The notes below the pieces were generated by a model, which saw only the letters and a list, made by a program, of their open reading frames with translations, did not search any database and was not told the DNA's origin. From assembly GCA_947473305.1 (NCBI GenBank), contig CANJCB010000024.1, positions 1-57,974 on the forward strand: DNA of 57,974 nt, written 5' to 3'. Below, piece after piece: positions 8,599 to 23,672 of this stretch; the first letter of the stretch is position 1; each line of letters starts with the position of its first letter. The translations under genes were made by a program, and so were the position numbers. Source of the DNA: Rhodospirillales bacterium (lineage in GTDB: Bacteria > Pseudomonadota > Alphaproteobacteria > ATCC43930 > CGMCC-115725).

Positions 8599-9783
8599 TC
8601 AAGCCCGCCCGACCACTTGGTCGAGAATCCAATTATTGATCGCGTTGATCCCGGTCTCCGTCCGCCCGAGCCGTCCGGCGCGGGCATAGGGCGACTCGAT
8701 CCCCGCCTGCTGGCGCAGCGCGATGTCCACATCCTCGCCGACGACCATGTCATTGCGATGATAGTAGTTTTTCACGATATCCTGGAAGTCGTTCCGCGCC
8801 ACCGTCGATTTCGGGAAGAGCAGGCTCACGGTCAGGCGCGACTTCGTCGGGGACAAGGGCTCCGAGTTGAAGACCAAAGCCCCGTCGTTGCCCAGGGTCA
8901 TCATCATGTTCGGATGAACCGCCGTGAAGATCGTCCCCTTTGCCTTGTCCGGATCGATCTGCGGCATCGCCGGGAAACCCTGCTGGCCGGGAAGCAGGAG
9001 CTGGCTACCCTCGTGCACGACGAGGCTCAGGCGATAGTGGCCTTGAGGCTCAGGCTGCGGCGAGCGGATGCCCTTCCATTGCGCCAGCGAATCCCGATGC
9101 ACGGTCGGTATGTGATAGGCGTCGCTGTAATTTTCGACGAAGTATTTCCAGTTGGCGTCCATGTTGAACACCATCTCTTTGACGCAGACCATCTCCTCGA
9201 GTTGGTGCGATTTCAGCCGTTCCCCGAAATCGCCCAGCTGGTCCGAGAGCTTGGTGTCGTTCTTCTCGAACTTCACGAAAATAAAGCCGCCCCAGGTGTC
9301 GCACTCCATCTCGACGAGGCCGAATTCCTGCTTGTTCGTGGCATCGATCAGCGGCTTGCCGTCAGGACCCTCGAATTCCGGCGCGCCGATCAATCCGCCG
9401 TCGAGCGCATAGGTCCAGGCGTGATAGGGACAGCGGAAGCCCTTGCAGTTTCCCTCGCCCGTCGCGACCAGCGCGCCGCGGTGCCGGCAGGTATTGGCAA
9501 AGACACGGACCTTGCGGTCATCGCCGCGAACGATCAGCAGCGGGATGTTCATGAAATTCTTGGTGAAGAAGTCTCCCACATTGGGCACCTTCTCCACCCG
9601 GTCGAGCAGCGACCAGCCCGGCAGGAACAACTTCTGCATTTCCGCATTGAAGAAGCGCTGCGACGTATAGCACCAGAGCGGCAAGGAGCGGCTTTGGGCG
9701 GGGTCGCGCACCTGCTCGTAGTGGCGCGGGTCGAGTACGTCTTCAGGTTCGGCGATACCGTAATTGCTGATGTCGTCCGGCAT
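8599..9783 (-). CDS. Rieske ring-hydroxylating oxygenase, large (alpha) subunit
   Basis: The 394-residue protein carries a Rieske [2Fe-2S] site in its N-terminal third (C99-x-H101 and C118-P-Y-H121) and a mononuclear iron site in the C-terminal domain (ENYSDAYHIPTVH, with H224 and H229 plus a distal Asp). Family enzymes hydroxylate or demethylate aromatics and quaternary amines, using electrons from a separate reductase. No beta subunit, ferredoxin or reductase gene is adjacent. The gene starts at ATG 9783 behind ggaga and runs 20 bp ahead of the PotD-type gene. An amine or betaine substrate taken up by that binding protein is an attractive guess but only inferred. Confidence 0.92.
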   Translation of the reverse strand: MPDDISNYGIAEPEDVLDPRHYEQVRDPAQSRSLPLWCYTSQRFFNAEMQKLFLPGWSLLDRVEKVPNVGDFFTKNFMNIPLLIVRGDDRKVRVFANTCRHRGALVATGEGNCKGFRCPYHAWTYALDGGLIGAPEFEGPDGKPLIDATNKQEFGLVEMECDTWGGFIFVKFEKNDTKLSDQLGDFGERLKSHQLEEMVCVKEMVFNMDANWKYFVENYSDAYHIPTVHRDSLAQWKGIRSPQPEPQGHYRLSLVVHEGSQLLLPGQQGFPAMPQIDPDKAKGTIFTAVHPNMMMTLGNDGALVFNSEPLSPTKSRLTVSLLFPKSTVARNDFQDIVKNYYHRNDMVVGEDVDIALRQQAGIESPYARAGRLGRTETGINAINNWILDQVVGRA

Positions 9784-21575: not shown

Positions 21576-21779
21576 ATGCCCTGGGGAGCGGCCGGCCTGC
21601 TTCTGGCAGAGATCTATCTGGCCCTGGGACTGGTGGTGGCGATTGGCTTCGTGAGCCTGGGCCTTACTCGCGCTTTTCCCCATTCCGGTCCGTTAACGCT
21701 GGGAGCGAGACTGCTCATTCTGCCCGCGTCGGCCTTGCTTTGGCCGCTGGTCCTGCGGCGATGGGCGAGCCCCAGATGA
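21576..21779 (+). CDS. Small two-helix membrane protein, first gene of redox operon
   Basis: A 67-residue, very hydrophobic protein. One membrane segment spans about residues 4-28 (AAGLLLAEIYLALGLVVAIG and following) and a second spans about 45-60, with a basic C-terminus (RRWASPR). The start at ATG 21576 has a strong caggaga 10 bases upstream. No known family was recognised. Its stop overlaps the next start by ATGA, and the two following junctions are also ATGA, so four proteins are made in step. The role is probably that of a structural subunit of the membrane complex, inferred from context. Confidence 0.75.
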   Translation: MPWGAAGLLLAEIYLALGLVVAIGFVSLGLTRAFPHSGPLTLGARLLILPASALLWPLVLRRWASPR

Positions 21780-21907
21780 AGCTCCGGCAAAGACGTCGGC
21801 ATCGTATCGCCTGGCTGATCGTGGCCCCCCTGGTCGCGGTCCTTTTCCTGGCGGCGCTGGCGGTGAAACCGCCCGTGCCCATCGCCCCCCTGGAGTCCGG
21901 GCGATGA
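21776..21907 (+). CDS. 43-residue single-helix membrane protein, second gene of redox operon
   Basis: A very short frame overlapping both neighbours by ATGA (21776-21779 and 21904-21907). The protein begins with a cluster of Arg, Lys and His (MKLRQRRRHR), runs into one helix (IAWLIVAPLVAVLFLAALAV) and ends with a short Pro-rich tail (KPPVPIAPLESGR). This is a typical N-in, C-out anchor peptide. Exact overlaps on both sides make it very likely to be translated although it is easily missed. The function is unknown; small subunits of this shape are common in cytochrome-type membrane complexes. Confidence 0.7.
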   Translation: MKLRQRRRHRIAWLIVAPLVAVLFLAALAVKPPVPIAPLESGR

Positions 21908-22953
21908 GCGCCGGTTTCCGGGCAGTCCAATGGAACCGCTACAAGATCGGCTACGACATCGTGGTCGTGGCGCTTGTCGCGAGCTACCTCAGCCTTTTCA
22001 TCAACGCGGCACCGCTGCTCTGGCCGCAGGACAACCCCGTAAACCCGCAGATCCAATGGATGCGGGCGCTCGGAAGCTGCGCTTTCCTCATGCTGACGGC
22101 GATCCTCTGCATCGGGCCTTTGGCAAGGCTCGACACGCGTTTTCTGCCCTTGCTCTACAACCGGCGGCATCTTGGGGTTGCGACCGCCTTCGTGGCGCTC
22201 GCCCACGCCTGGTCGGTGCTCGACTGGTATCACGCCCATGGGAAGATCGACCCCCTGCTTTCGATCCTCGTGAGCAACTCCCGCTATCTGAGCTTTCAAG
22301 GCTTCCCCTTCGAGGCGCTGGGGCTCGCGGCGCTTCTTCTGCTCGTCGTCATGGCGGCGATCAGCCATGACTTCTGGCTCGCTTTCCTGACCCCGCCGGT
22401 CTGGAAGACGATCCATATGCTGGTCTATCCCGCCTATGGTTTCTTGGTGATGCATGTGGCGCTGGGAGCGATGCAGGGACAGGCGGGGCTGACGCTTCCC
22501 CTCCTGCTTATCTTCTCTTTCGGGGCCGTGACAGGTCTCCATCTCTTTGCCGGCTGGCGCGAGGCCCCCGCCGATGAGGGCCAGGACGCGCGGGATGGCT
22601 GGCTCGACGTGGGCCGGCCCGAAACCATTTCCGACGGCGCGGCATGCATCGTCGCGCCGCGCGACGGAGAGCGCATTGCCGTTTTCCGCAACGGTGACCG
22701 GCTCTCGGCGCTCTCCAACGTCTGCGCGCATCAGAACGGCCCCCTCGGGGAGGGTTTCGTCATCGACGGCTGCGTCACCTGTCCCTGGCATGGTTTCCAA
22801 TACCGGCTGGAGGACGGTTGCGCCCCTCCTCCCTTCACCGAAAAGCTCAATACCTTCAGGCTTCGGCTCGTCCGGGGGATCGTCCAGGTGGATCCCAACC
22901 CGCTGCCACCCGGCACCTTCGTCGAACCGCTCAATGTGGGAGCCGCGATATGA
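21904..22953 (+). CDS. Fusion of ferric-reductase-like membrane domain with a Rieske [2Fe-2S] domain
   Basis: A 349-residue two-domain protein. Residues 1-220 hold about six membrane helices with a ferric-reductase-like cytochrome-b arrangement. Candidate heme ligands are H101, H110, H171 and H184. Residues 232-335 form a Rieske domain with C274-A-H276 and C293-P-W-H296. Rieske plus b-type membrane domains pass electrons across or along the membrane, but the two are rarely joined in this order. The start at 21904 and stop at 22953 each overlap a neighbour by ATGA. The donor and acceptor are unknown. Confidence 0.82.
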   Translation: MSAGFRAVQWNRYKIGYDIVVVALVASYLSLFINAAPLLWPQDNPVNPQIQWMRALGSCAFLMLTAILCIGPLARLDTRFLPLLYNRRHLGVATAFVALAHAWSVLDWYHAHGKIDPLLSILVSNSRYLSFQGFPFEALGLAALLLLVVMAAISHDFWLAFLTPPVWKTIHMLVYPAYGFLVMHVALGAMQGQAGLTLPLLLIFSFGAVTGLHLFAGWREAPADEGQDARDGWLDVGRPETISDGAACIVAPRDGERIAVFRNGDRLSALSNVCAHQNGPLGEGFVIDGCVTCPWHGFQYRLEDGCAPPPFTEKLNTFRLRLVRGIVQVDPNPLPPGTFVEPLNVGAAI

Positions 22954-23672
22954 AGCCTTTTTTCATCGGCTGGATGGGATTGCCGAAAGGGCTGAGGCTT
23001 TTCATCGCCGGGGCGGTCGCGATACTGGTCCTGTCCCAGGCGGCCATCGCAGCACTCCTCTATCTCGGCCAGCCGCCGCGCGCGACCGGCGTCTGGGGCG
23101 ACGGCGAGCAGAGCTTCGAGGGCACGCTCCTCACCCTTCCCTATCCCATGGTCCGGCTCGCCCCAGCCGACGGCAAGCCGGCCCGTACGATCCTGCTGGT
23201 CGACGAATGGAAATTCGGCCTGCCGCTCGGATCCGACTTCAAGGACGGCGACAAGGTCGGGGTGCGCGGCTATTCCATCGAACGTAACGGTGTCACCGTT
23301 CTCCAGGTCTCGGCGCCCTTGGACCGTTTGGCGGCAGGAGCCGCCATGCCTGGCATCGACCGCGGCGAGCAAACCCTCACGGGCGAAATCGTCGACAGCA
23401 AATGCTGGACGGGCGCCATGAACCCCGGCGACGGCAAGGCGCATAAGGGCTGCGGGTCGCTCTGCCTCCTGGGCGGGATTCCCGCACTCTTCATCCCGGC
23501 CAATGGATCGGGCTGGTATGTGTTGGCGGATGGCGAAGGCCAATCGCTCGGCGAAGATATCCGCGCAAGGATCGGCGAGCGGCTGACACTCAAAGGCCGT
23601 TTGTTCGGCGAGGGGGACCTTCGCATCCTGCGGGTAGATGCCGACAGCCTCCTGAACTCCCCCACAGGATGA
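22950..23672 (+). CDS. Membrane-anchored exported protein with Cys/His motif, partner of Rieske fusion
   Basis: A 240-residue protein with one N-terminal helix (about residues 15-38) that puts the rest in the periplasm. The C-terminal part contains GEIVDSKCWTGAMNPGDGKA followed by HKGCGSLCLLGGIPALF. C152, H165, C168 and C172 could bind a metal or cofactor. The residues around 140-230 look like an OB-type beta domain, but I cannot name a family with confidence. The ATGA overlap with the Rieske fusion gene implies a stable partnership. It is the last gene of the four-gene operon. Confidence 0.78.
   Translation: MKPFFIGWMGLPKGLRLFIAGAVAILVLSQAAIAALLYLGQPPRATGVWGDGEQSFEGTLLTLPYPMVRLAPADGKPARTILLVDEWKFGLPLGSDFKDGDKVGVRGYSIERNGVTVLQVSAPLDRLAAGAAMPGIDRGEQTLTGEIVDSKCWTGAMNPGDGKAHKGCGSLCLLGGIPALFIPANGSGWYVLADGEGQSLGEDIRARIGERLTLKGRLFGEGDLRILRVDADSLLNSPTG

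Follow-up and report, generated by a model that had tools for sequence, protein, structure and literature searches.

A conserved four-gene operon around a ferric reductase–Rieske fusion as a candidate transmembrane electron-transfer system in Alphaproteobacteria

Introduction

What does a membrane protein that carries a ferric-reductase-like heme domain and a Rieske domain in one chain do together with three further genes, and between which partners could it transfer electrons? This question is raised by four consecutive genes at 21576-23672 of a 57,974-nucleotide stretch of DNA from a Rhodospirillales bacterium, which was analysed as a whole and is called the window below. A preliminary description, made from the letters of the window, had proposed that the four products form one membrane redox complex of a make-up without a described counterpart. 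Here we combine domain searches, structural models and a comparison of related loci to ask which parts of this proposal hold and which donors and acceptors come into consideration.

Results

The four genes form a compact unit

All four open reading frames are present in the window with the sizes that had been claimed for them. Based on the open reading frames and hydropathy, gene 1 (21576..21779, +) encodes a small membrane protein of 67 aa with two hydrophobic stretches and gene 2 (21776..21907, +) a single-span membrane protein of 43 aa with a basic N-terminus. Gene 3 (21904..22953, +) encodes the 349-aa fusion of a ferric reductase domain (FRD) of the MsrQ/STEAP-like type with a Rieske domain, and gene 4 (22950..23672, +) a membrane-anchored protein of 240 aa with beta-rich domains that are predicted to be periplasmic. 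Upstream of gene 1 lies a divergent glycosyltransferase-2 gene and downstream of gene 4 a CinA-domain gene, so that the four genes stand as a compact unit of their own. For genes 1, 2 and 4, neither Pfam, at its curated cut-offs, nor NCBIfam produced a match. A search of genes 3 and 4 with PADLOC likewise gave no match, and a link of these two genes to defence systems was dropped.

Consecutive genes overlap by ATGA at 21776, 21904 and 22950, that is, at all three junctions. The full ATGA coupling described before is therefore real in the window, but it is not general among the 80 nearest loci. Our genome-contig scan returned at least 580 stretches that encode a relative, some of which may be Rieske-only since a Rieske motif was among the search patterns; the 80 loci are the best, full-length ones, chosen for nearness to the query, and proportions among them are thus not general. 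Within these best 80 of at least 580 stretches, a 4-base overlap joins genes 2 and 3 in 53 of 79 loci and is possible between genes 3 and 4 in 35 of 59, if the start codon closest to the overlap is taken, and a gene 2 homologue is found in all 80. Gene 1 has a homologue in 79 loci, the exception (L125) starting too near its contig end. Moreover, in 11 of 79 loci no stop separates genes 1 and 2, which there share a single open frame (L103, L110, L111, L114, L133-L137, L143 and L146, mostly under record names of the rhodobacter or roseobacter type); this speaks for a joint action of the two products.

Gene 3 combines an MsrQ/STEAP-type membrane domain with a ferredoxin-type Rieske domain

The fusion of a b-type-like membrane domain with a Rieske domain was confirmed by Pfam. 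A Ferric_reduct domain (PF01794; residues 57-181, 22072..22446, +) was matched with E 1.4e-9 and 38.5 bits against a cut-off of 28, which places gene 3 in the FRD superfamily, and a Rieske [2Fe-2S] domain (PF00355; residues 233-318, 22600..22857, +) with E 2.2e-13 and 50.3 bits. The membrane domain is thus a member of a known family. In an alignment of 60 proteins R87, H89, H101, H155, H171, H184 and H213 are invariant. This retains three of the four histidines that had been put forward as heme ligands, H101, H171 and H184, but removes H110, which is His in 15 of the 60 proteins, Phe in 19 and mostly Tyr, Ile or Ala in the others. An arginine takes the place of the first heme histidine in YedZ and STEAP proteins; YedZ and STEAP1 keep three of the four heme histidines and have a conserved Arg in TM3 (PMC3591440). 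The pattern given there for short FRDs of the YedZ/MsrQ/STEAP1-like type (Arg for the first TM3 His, together with equivalents of H115, H209 and H222) is found in gene 3 as the TM3 pair R87 and H101 (22162..22206, +) and the TM5 heme candidates H171 and H184 (22414..22455, +), matched by their spacing of 14 and 13 residues, respectively. In the AlphaFold2 model of gene 3 (pLDDT 89.3), the membrane domain is closest to STEAP2 (Z 17.3, rmsd 3.3, 200 aligned residues), followed by STEAP1, STEAP4 and the membrane domain of NOX5 (Z 15.8). Residue pattern and model together predict an MsrQ/STEAP-type heme domain that would bind heme b.

The Rieske ligands proposed earlier, C274/H276 and C293/H296, are invariant in all 60 proteins. 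They have the C-x-H and C-x2-H arrangement of dioxygenase-ferredoxin-type Rieske domains, and the predicted model shows the corresponding ferredoxin-type fold, with carbazole dioxygenase ferredoxin as a structural match (Z 16.1, rmsd 1.9, 107 aligned). The two boxes read CAHQ and CPWH. Rieske proteins of the bc1 type carry additional cysteines in these boxes, and the lack of these in gene 3 suggests a low potential.

On which side of the membrane this domain lies was computed from the charges of the loops, whose limits were set by hand. Averaged over the 60 proteins, K+R amounts to 2.5 in the N-terminus, 4.5 in loop 2-3, 1.6 in loop 4-5 and 3.1 in the C-terminal linker, compared to 0.6-0.9 in the other three loops, and this distribution places both termini and loops 2-3 and 4-5 inside and predicts a cytosolic Rieske domain. 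The linker is also acidic (mean D+E 3.4), which weakens the call at the C-terminus. Dual Sec/Tat export, of the kind described in PMC5449189, is not favoured for the Rieske domain, as the last helix of gene 3 has no twin arginine in front of it and the charge bias points to an inside C-terminus.

Gene 4 carries an invariant Cys3-His site

The cysteines and the histidine singled out in gene 4 (C152, H165, C168 and C172) proved to be invariant in 48 of 48 aligned proteins, as are D149 and K151, giving a motif D149-K151-C152 ... H165-C168-C172 at 23394..23465 (+). The AlphaFold2 model (pLDDT 91.2) consists of one N-terminal helix, residues 13-39, which hydropathy also marks as the membrane anchor (22986..23066, +), and two beta-rich parts; H165, C168 and C172 share a helix (164-174), spaced i, i+3 and i+7. 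Residues 47-131 are predicted to form an OB fold (best VIA-align match Z 8.4, rmsd 3.3, 78 aligned), a call of fold class only, with many SSB-type rows at Z 7-8 and the C-terminal domain barely probed by VIA-align. By sequence, no relative was found among solved structures (best E 0.22), and Foldseek returned nothing at E <= 0.001. The charges on both sides of the anchor are nearly alike (K+R 1.65 before and 1.48 after, D+E 1.88 and 2.54), so that the evidence for the orientation of gene 4 comes chiefly from relatives of its C-terminal domain that look secreted. Gene 4 is thus predicted to be a membrane-anchored periplasmic protein, and we infer that its Cys3-His site is a putative redox centre based on thiols or on a metal (Cu, Zn or Fe).

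These relatives are short proteins of about 140 aa that correspond to the Cys/His domain (L165-L178; for example L169:6822-8398). The motif pattern was located in 12 of the 14 loci examined, and the relative in L178 lacks the first Cys of the motif. In 6 of the 12 located loci, strict patterns detect a gene for an SCO-type CxxxC protein close by and on the same strand, and in 5 of the 12 one for a second, cysteine-rich protein (CELTGNCPxNCGxGKRQLGLL). The same strict patterns found neither protein in 96 operon loci, window included, and a copper link of the operon is therefore a lead only.

Distribution and linkage of the genes

Full-length gene 3 is present in 5 of 61 related genomes, the window genome included. 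In the class as a whole, the gene-3 profile matched 17 of 385 genomes (E <= 1e-40). Genes 1 and 2 stand beside the fusion in all 17 of these (gene 2 being recognised by tblastn or profile in 13 and by eye reading of the translations in 4), and all four genes are side by side in 15. A fusion that mostly occurs without the other three genes, which the preliminary description had named as evidence against its proposal, is thus not what the class sample contains. In the remaining two genomes, G254 and G418 of one genus, genes 1-3 are retained and the position of gene 4 is taken by a Rieske/FMN_red-type gene. The gene-4 profile matched 26 of the 385 genomes, G254 and G418 not among them; 15 matches are full-length and the other 14 short, with open frames of 138-232 aa. 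Every full-length gene 4 in the class sample lies beside genes 1 and 3 (15 of 15, the window's own included) and beside gene 2, as seen by tblastn in 11 and by eye reading of translations in 4. This linkage supports well that the four genes are one functional unit, which is also favoured by the single open frames of genes 1 and 2. Gene 4 is not obligatory, since one clade lacks it next to gene 3. Of the 80 loci, gene 4 is found in 59 (in L100 partially, at the end of the contig) and a Rieske match directly after gene 3 in its stead in 12; the other 9 have neither there, including L075, where the contig stops.

In a phylum sample, 51 of 398 genomes matched gene 3 at E <= 1e-18. Full-length gene 3 occurs in 7 of the 398 (E 4.7e-149 or better), all in the window's class, and more distant FRD-Rieske fusions did not appear among the matches listed, the rest of which begin at profile position 178 or later and cover essentially the Rieske part. 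The gene order is conserved beyond chance, being shared between families of the class and with four Planctomycetota records (L085, L112, L121 and L132, of which L121 is titled the complete chromosome of a MAG). Its occurrence in these four suggests horizontal transfer or, for those that are metagenome bins, a binning error; they group together within the mainly alphaproteobacterial gene-3 tree. This tree was built from 60 sequences, that of the window plus those from 59 of the 80 loci, and its midpoint root serves for drawing only. One branch (100/99) sets the gene-4-bearing rows apart from the others. The window protein groups beside 19 rows without gene 4 (99/96) and is the sole gene-4 bearer there among the rows used; its closest known relatives, G001 and G011, which are 62-64% identical and have gene 4, are absent from the tree. 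In one MAG, gene 3 comes in two same-frame pieces with one codon between them (L113:9478-9480), an apparent in-frame stop or a sequence error.

Rieske-linked enzymes are frequent neighbours

We surveyed up to 9 kb on each side of the 80 loci, using Pfam on one member per protein cluster. A Rieske domain combined with a Glu_synthase domain is encoded near the operon in 26 of the 80 loci (N-terminal Rieske on a glutamate-synthase-like enzyme in L096:6962-8569), and a TPP enzyme with a Rieske match inside the enzyme in 19 (N-terminal Rieske on a pyruvate-oxidase-like enzyme in L111:1898-3883). The best NCBIfam model for the TPP enzyme is pyruvate oxidase, at 388 bits, which is under the cut-off of 742. 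A Na/H exchanger gene is found near the operon in 16 loci. In the gene-4-less clade, a Rieske match follows within 200 bases after gene 3 in 12 of the 80 loci, 11 of them in one protein cluster, and PF03358 (FMN_red) was found in the one cluster member checked; L087:2098-3204 is an example of such an N-terminal Rieske domain on an FMN-reductase-like protein. The Rieske/FMN_red-type genes of the two gene-4-less class genomes encode proteins 65-66% identical to the cluster protein.

The window genome has 30 Rieske matches with a longest open frame of 492 aa, and the large Rieske fusions of the other loci were not seen among them. Two short Rieske genes of this genome (C22 and C15) were considered as donors and rejected, as they encode lone Rieske proteins of ~100 aa and not FMN_red fusions. 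Elsewhere in the window, 8599-9783 (-) encodes the alpha subunit of a Rieske ring-hydroxylating oxygenase.

Five Rhizobium plasmid records match gene 3. The two examined annotate it as 'Rieske 2Fe-2S domain-containing protein' and genes 1, 2 and 4 as 'hypothetical protein', and carry TPP enzyme, CoA-transferase and OpgC genes upstream of the operon. A set of TPP enzyme, CoA-transferase, OpgC-like and TPR genes also lies upstream in loci of rhizobia and a relative (L196:1712-8618, L197:1704-8616 and L077:1854-8433, the gene names of L077 coming partly from direct reading of the sequences). One Rhizobium plasmid has a CopD-family gene 6.6 kb downstream.

Discussion

With moderate confidence, we interpret the operon as encoding an MsrQ/STEAP/NOX-type conduit for electrons across the membrane, which leads from a cytosolic Rieske domain via heme b to the periplasmic gene 4 product. 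Gene order, linkage, domain content and conservation are observed, and topology and fold are computational predictions; the loading with cofactors, the direction of flow, the identity of donor and acceptor and the assembly of the products are what we infer from these data. The Rieske domain of gene 3 would lie in the cytosol, where NOX has its FAD/NAD(P)H module, and would receive electrons from a cytosolic flavoprotein. From there they would pass to heme b, held by H101, H171 and H184 in the membrane domain, and on to the periplasmic face, where gene 4, with a one-helix anchor and its domains outside, could serve as acceptor or relay through the Cys3-His site. Genes 1 and 2 would be small accessory subunits that act together. 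One clade has no gene 4 next to gene 3, so the acceptor cannot be gene 4 wherever the fusion occurs.

A cytosolic flavoprotein as donor is suggested by analogy with two described arrangements. For MsrQ, the flavin reductase Fre has been put forward as the electron donor, with a periplasmic protein as acceptor (PMC5676040), and MsrQ-like clusters link partners in the cytosol, NAD-binding or NuoF-like, to an FMN protein outside it (PMC8238504). MsrQ has also been described as drawing electrons from the respiratory chain (PMC5449189) and as binding quinone (PMC8238504), so that a quinol donor may stay in play.

How new is such a system? MsrQ (YedZ) of MsrPQ is likewise an FRD heme protein with an Arg for the first heme His (PMC3591440) and, in the reading proposed here, resembles the operon in donor and acceptor type. 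Unlike MsrPQ, the operon has a C-terminal Rieske fusion and two extra small membrane proteins, and the partner is a Cys3-His OB-fold protein rather than the molybdoenzyme MsrP; gene 3 scores 17.9 bits with the MsrQ equivalog model NF003831, whose cut-off is 130, and none of the four proteins has a molybdoenzyme domain. The flavinylation-associated MsrQ-like systems also use a PF01794 protein to link a cytosolic donor to an adjacently encoded extracytosolic redox protein (PMC8238504). In contrast to these, the operon has a Rieske instead of an NAD-binding domain and gene 4 as a different extracytosolic module, and Pfam detected no FMN-binding domain in the four proteins. With STEAP and NOX proteins gene 3 shares the membrane fold, but a Rieske ferredoxin domain replaces the cytosolic NAD(P)H/FAD module, and Pfam shows solely Ferric_reduct and Rieske families in gene 3. 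The combination itself was listed in 2013 among FRD extensions as architecture model M4, whose legend also assigns FMN; the passages on this model name FRD and Rieske, with neither an operon nor gene 4 nor a function (PMC3591440). The claim that no described system has this exact make-up therefore needs narrowing, as the FRD+Rieske architecture and the MsrQ-like kind of electron transfer (PMC8238504) are on record. It stands for the operon of four genes, for gene 4 and for the Rieske fusions among the neighbours, of which searches of open-licence literature found no description. Membrane domain and FRD+Rieske architecture are thus known, and the system of four genes and the outer partner have apparently not been described so far. 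If our interpretation is correct, this would be a transmembrane electron-transfer system in which a Rieske ferredoxin takes the place that a flavin/NAD(P)H module has in NOX and STEAP, and the periplasmic partner would be a protein outside Pfam and NCBIfam. Such a system may, in Alphaproteobacteria and some Planctomycetota, connect enzymes of central metabolism with the periplasm, and it yields concrete candidates for donor and acceptor.

The Rieske-fused neighbours raise a further, tentative idea. The FMN reductase, the pyruvate-oxidase-like TPP enzyme and the glutamate-synthase-like protein, unrelated enzymes of the cytosol, might each have gained a Rieske domain as a plug to a common bus, through which they would exchange electrons with one FRD-Rieske conduit, to be exported quinone-free to periplasmic Cys3-His OB-fold redox proteins, which would represent a new class; we consider this possible, with clearly less confidence than the conduit itself.

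Three other readings of the operon were weighed. The first, a special case of the electron conduit and not its opposite, is a role in periplasmic metal reduction or handling, in which a STEAP-like heme would reduce Cu(II) or Fe(III) and gene 4 would bind the metal, perhaps for oxidase assembly. We rate it as rather doubtful: the membrane domain is indeed nearest to STEAP metalloreductases, half of the located short gene-4 relatives have an SCO-type neighbour and the one CopD-family gene points the same way, but the strict SCO-type pattern is missing from all 96 operon loci and a Pfam scan of nine neighbour proteins revealed no metal transporter.

Electrons could also flow in the reverse direction. 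Quinol or a periplasmic donor would then deliver them to gene 4 or the heme, and they would leave through the Rieske domain in the cytosol, where Rieske-linked enzymes, for instance Rieske oxygenases or the Rieske/glutamate-synthase protein, would receive them. Domains of the glutamate-synthase type are electron consumers and oxygenases are supplied by Rieske ferredoxins, so the frequent glutamate-synthase-type neighbours speak for this direction. It is nevertheless improbable in our judgement, because the fusion is accompanied by an FMN-reductase-type protein in the gene-4-less clade and by a nearby pyruvate-oxidase-like enzyme in many loci, either of which could plausibly supply electrons, and because the low potential expected from a CPWH box without the extra bc1-type Cys would make transfer from quinol uphill. 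Finally, a NOX-like bacterial oxidase producing superoxide at the periplasmic face, to which the fold likeness of gene 3 to NOX5, NOX2 and SpNOX (Z 13-16) could point, is very improbable given the lack of an FAD/NAD(P)H module in gene 3, the four-histidine pattern broken by R87 and the conserved membrane-anchored partner, which suggests a protein acceptor.

Apart from the conduit proposed for the operon, the short gene-4 relatives, together with the cysteine-rich protein and the SCO/SenC-like protein encoded near them, possibly constitute an undescribed copper or oxidase-assembly trio.
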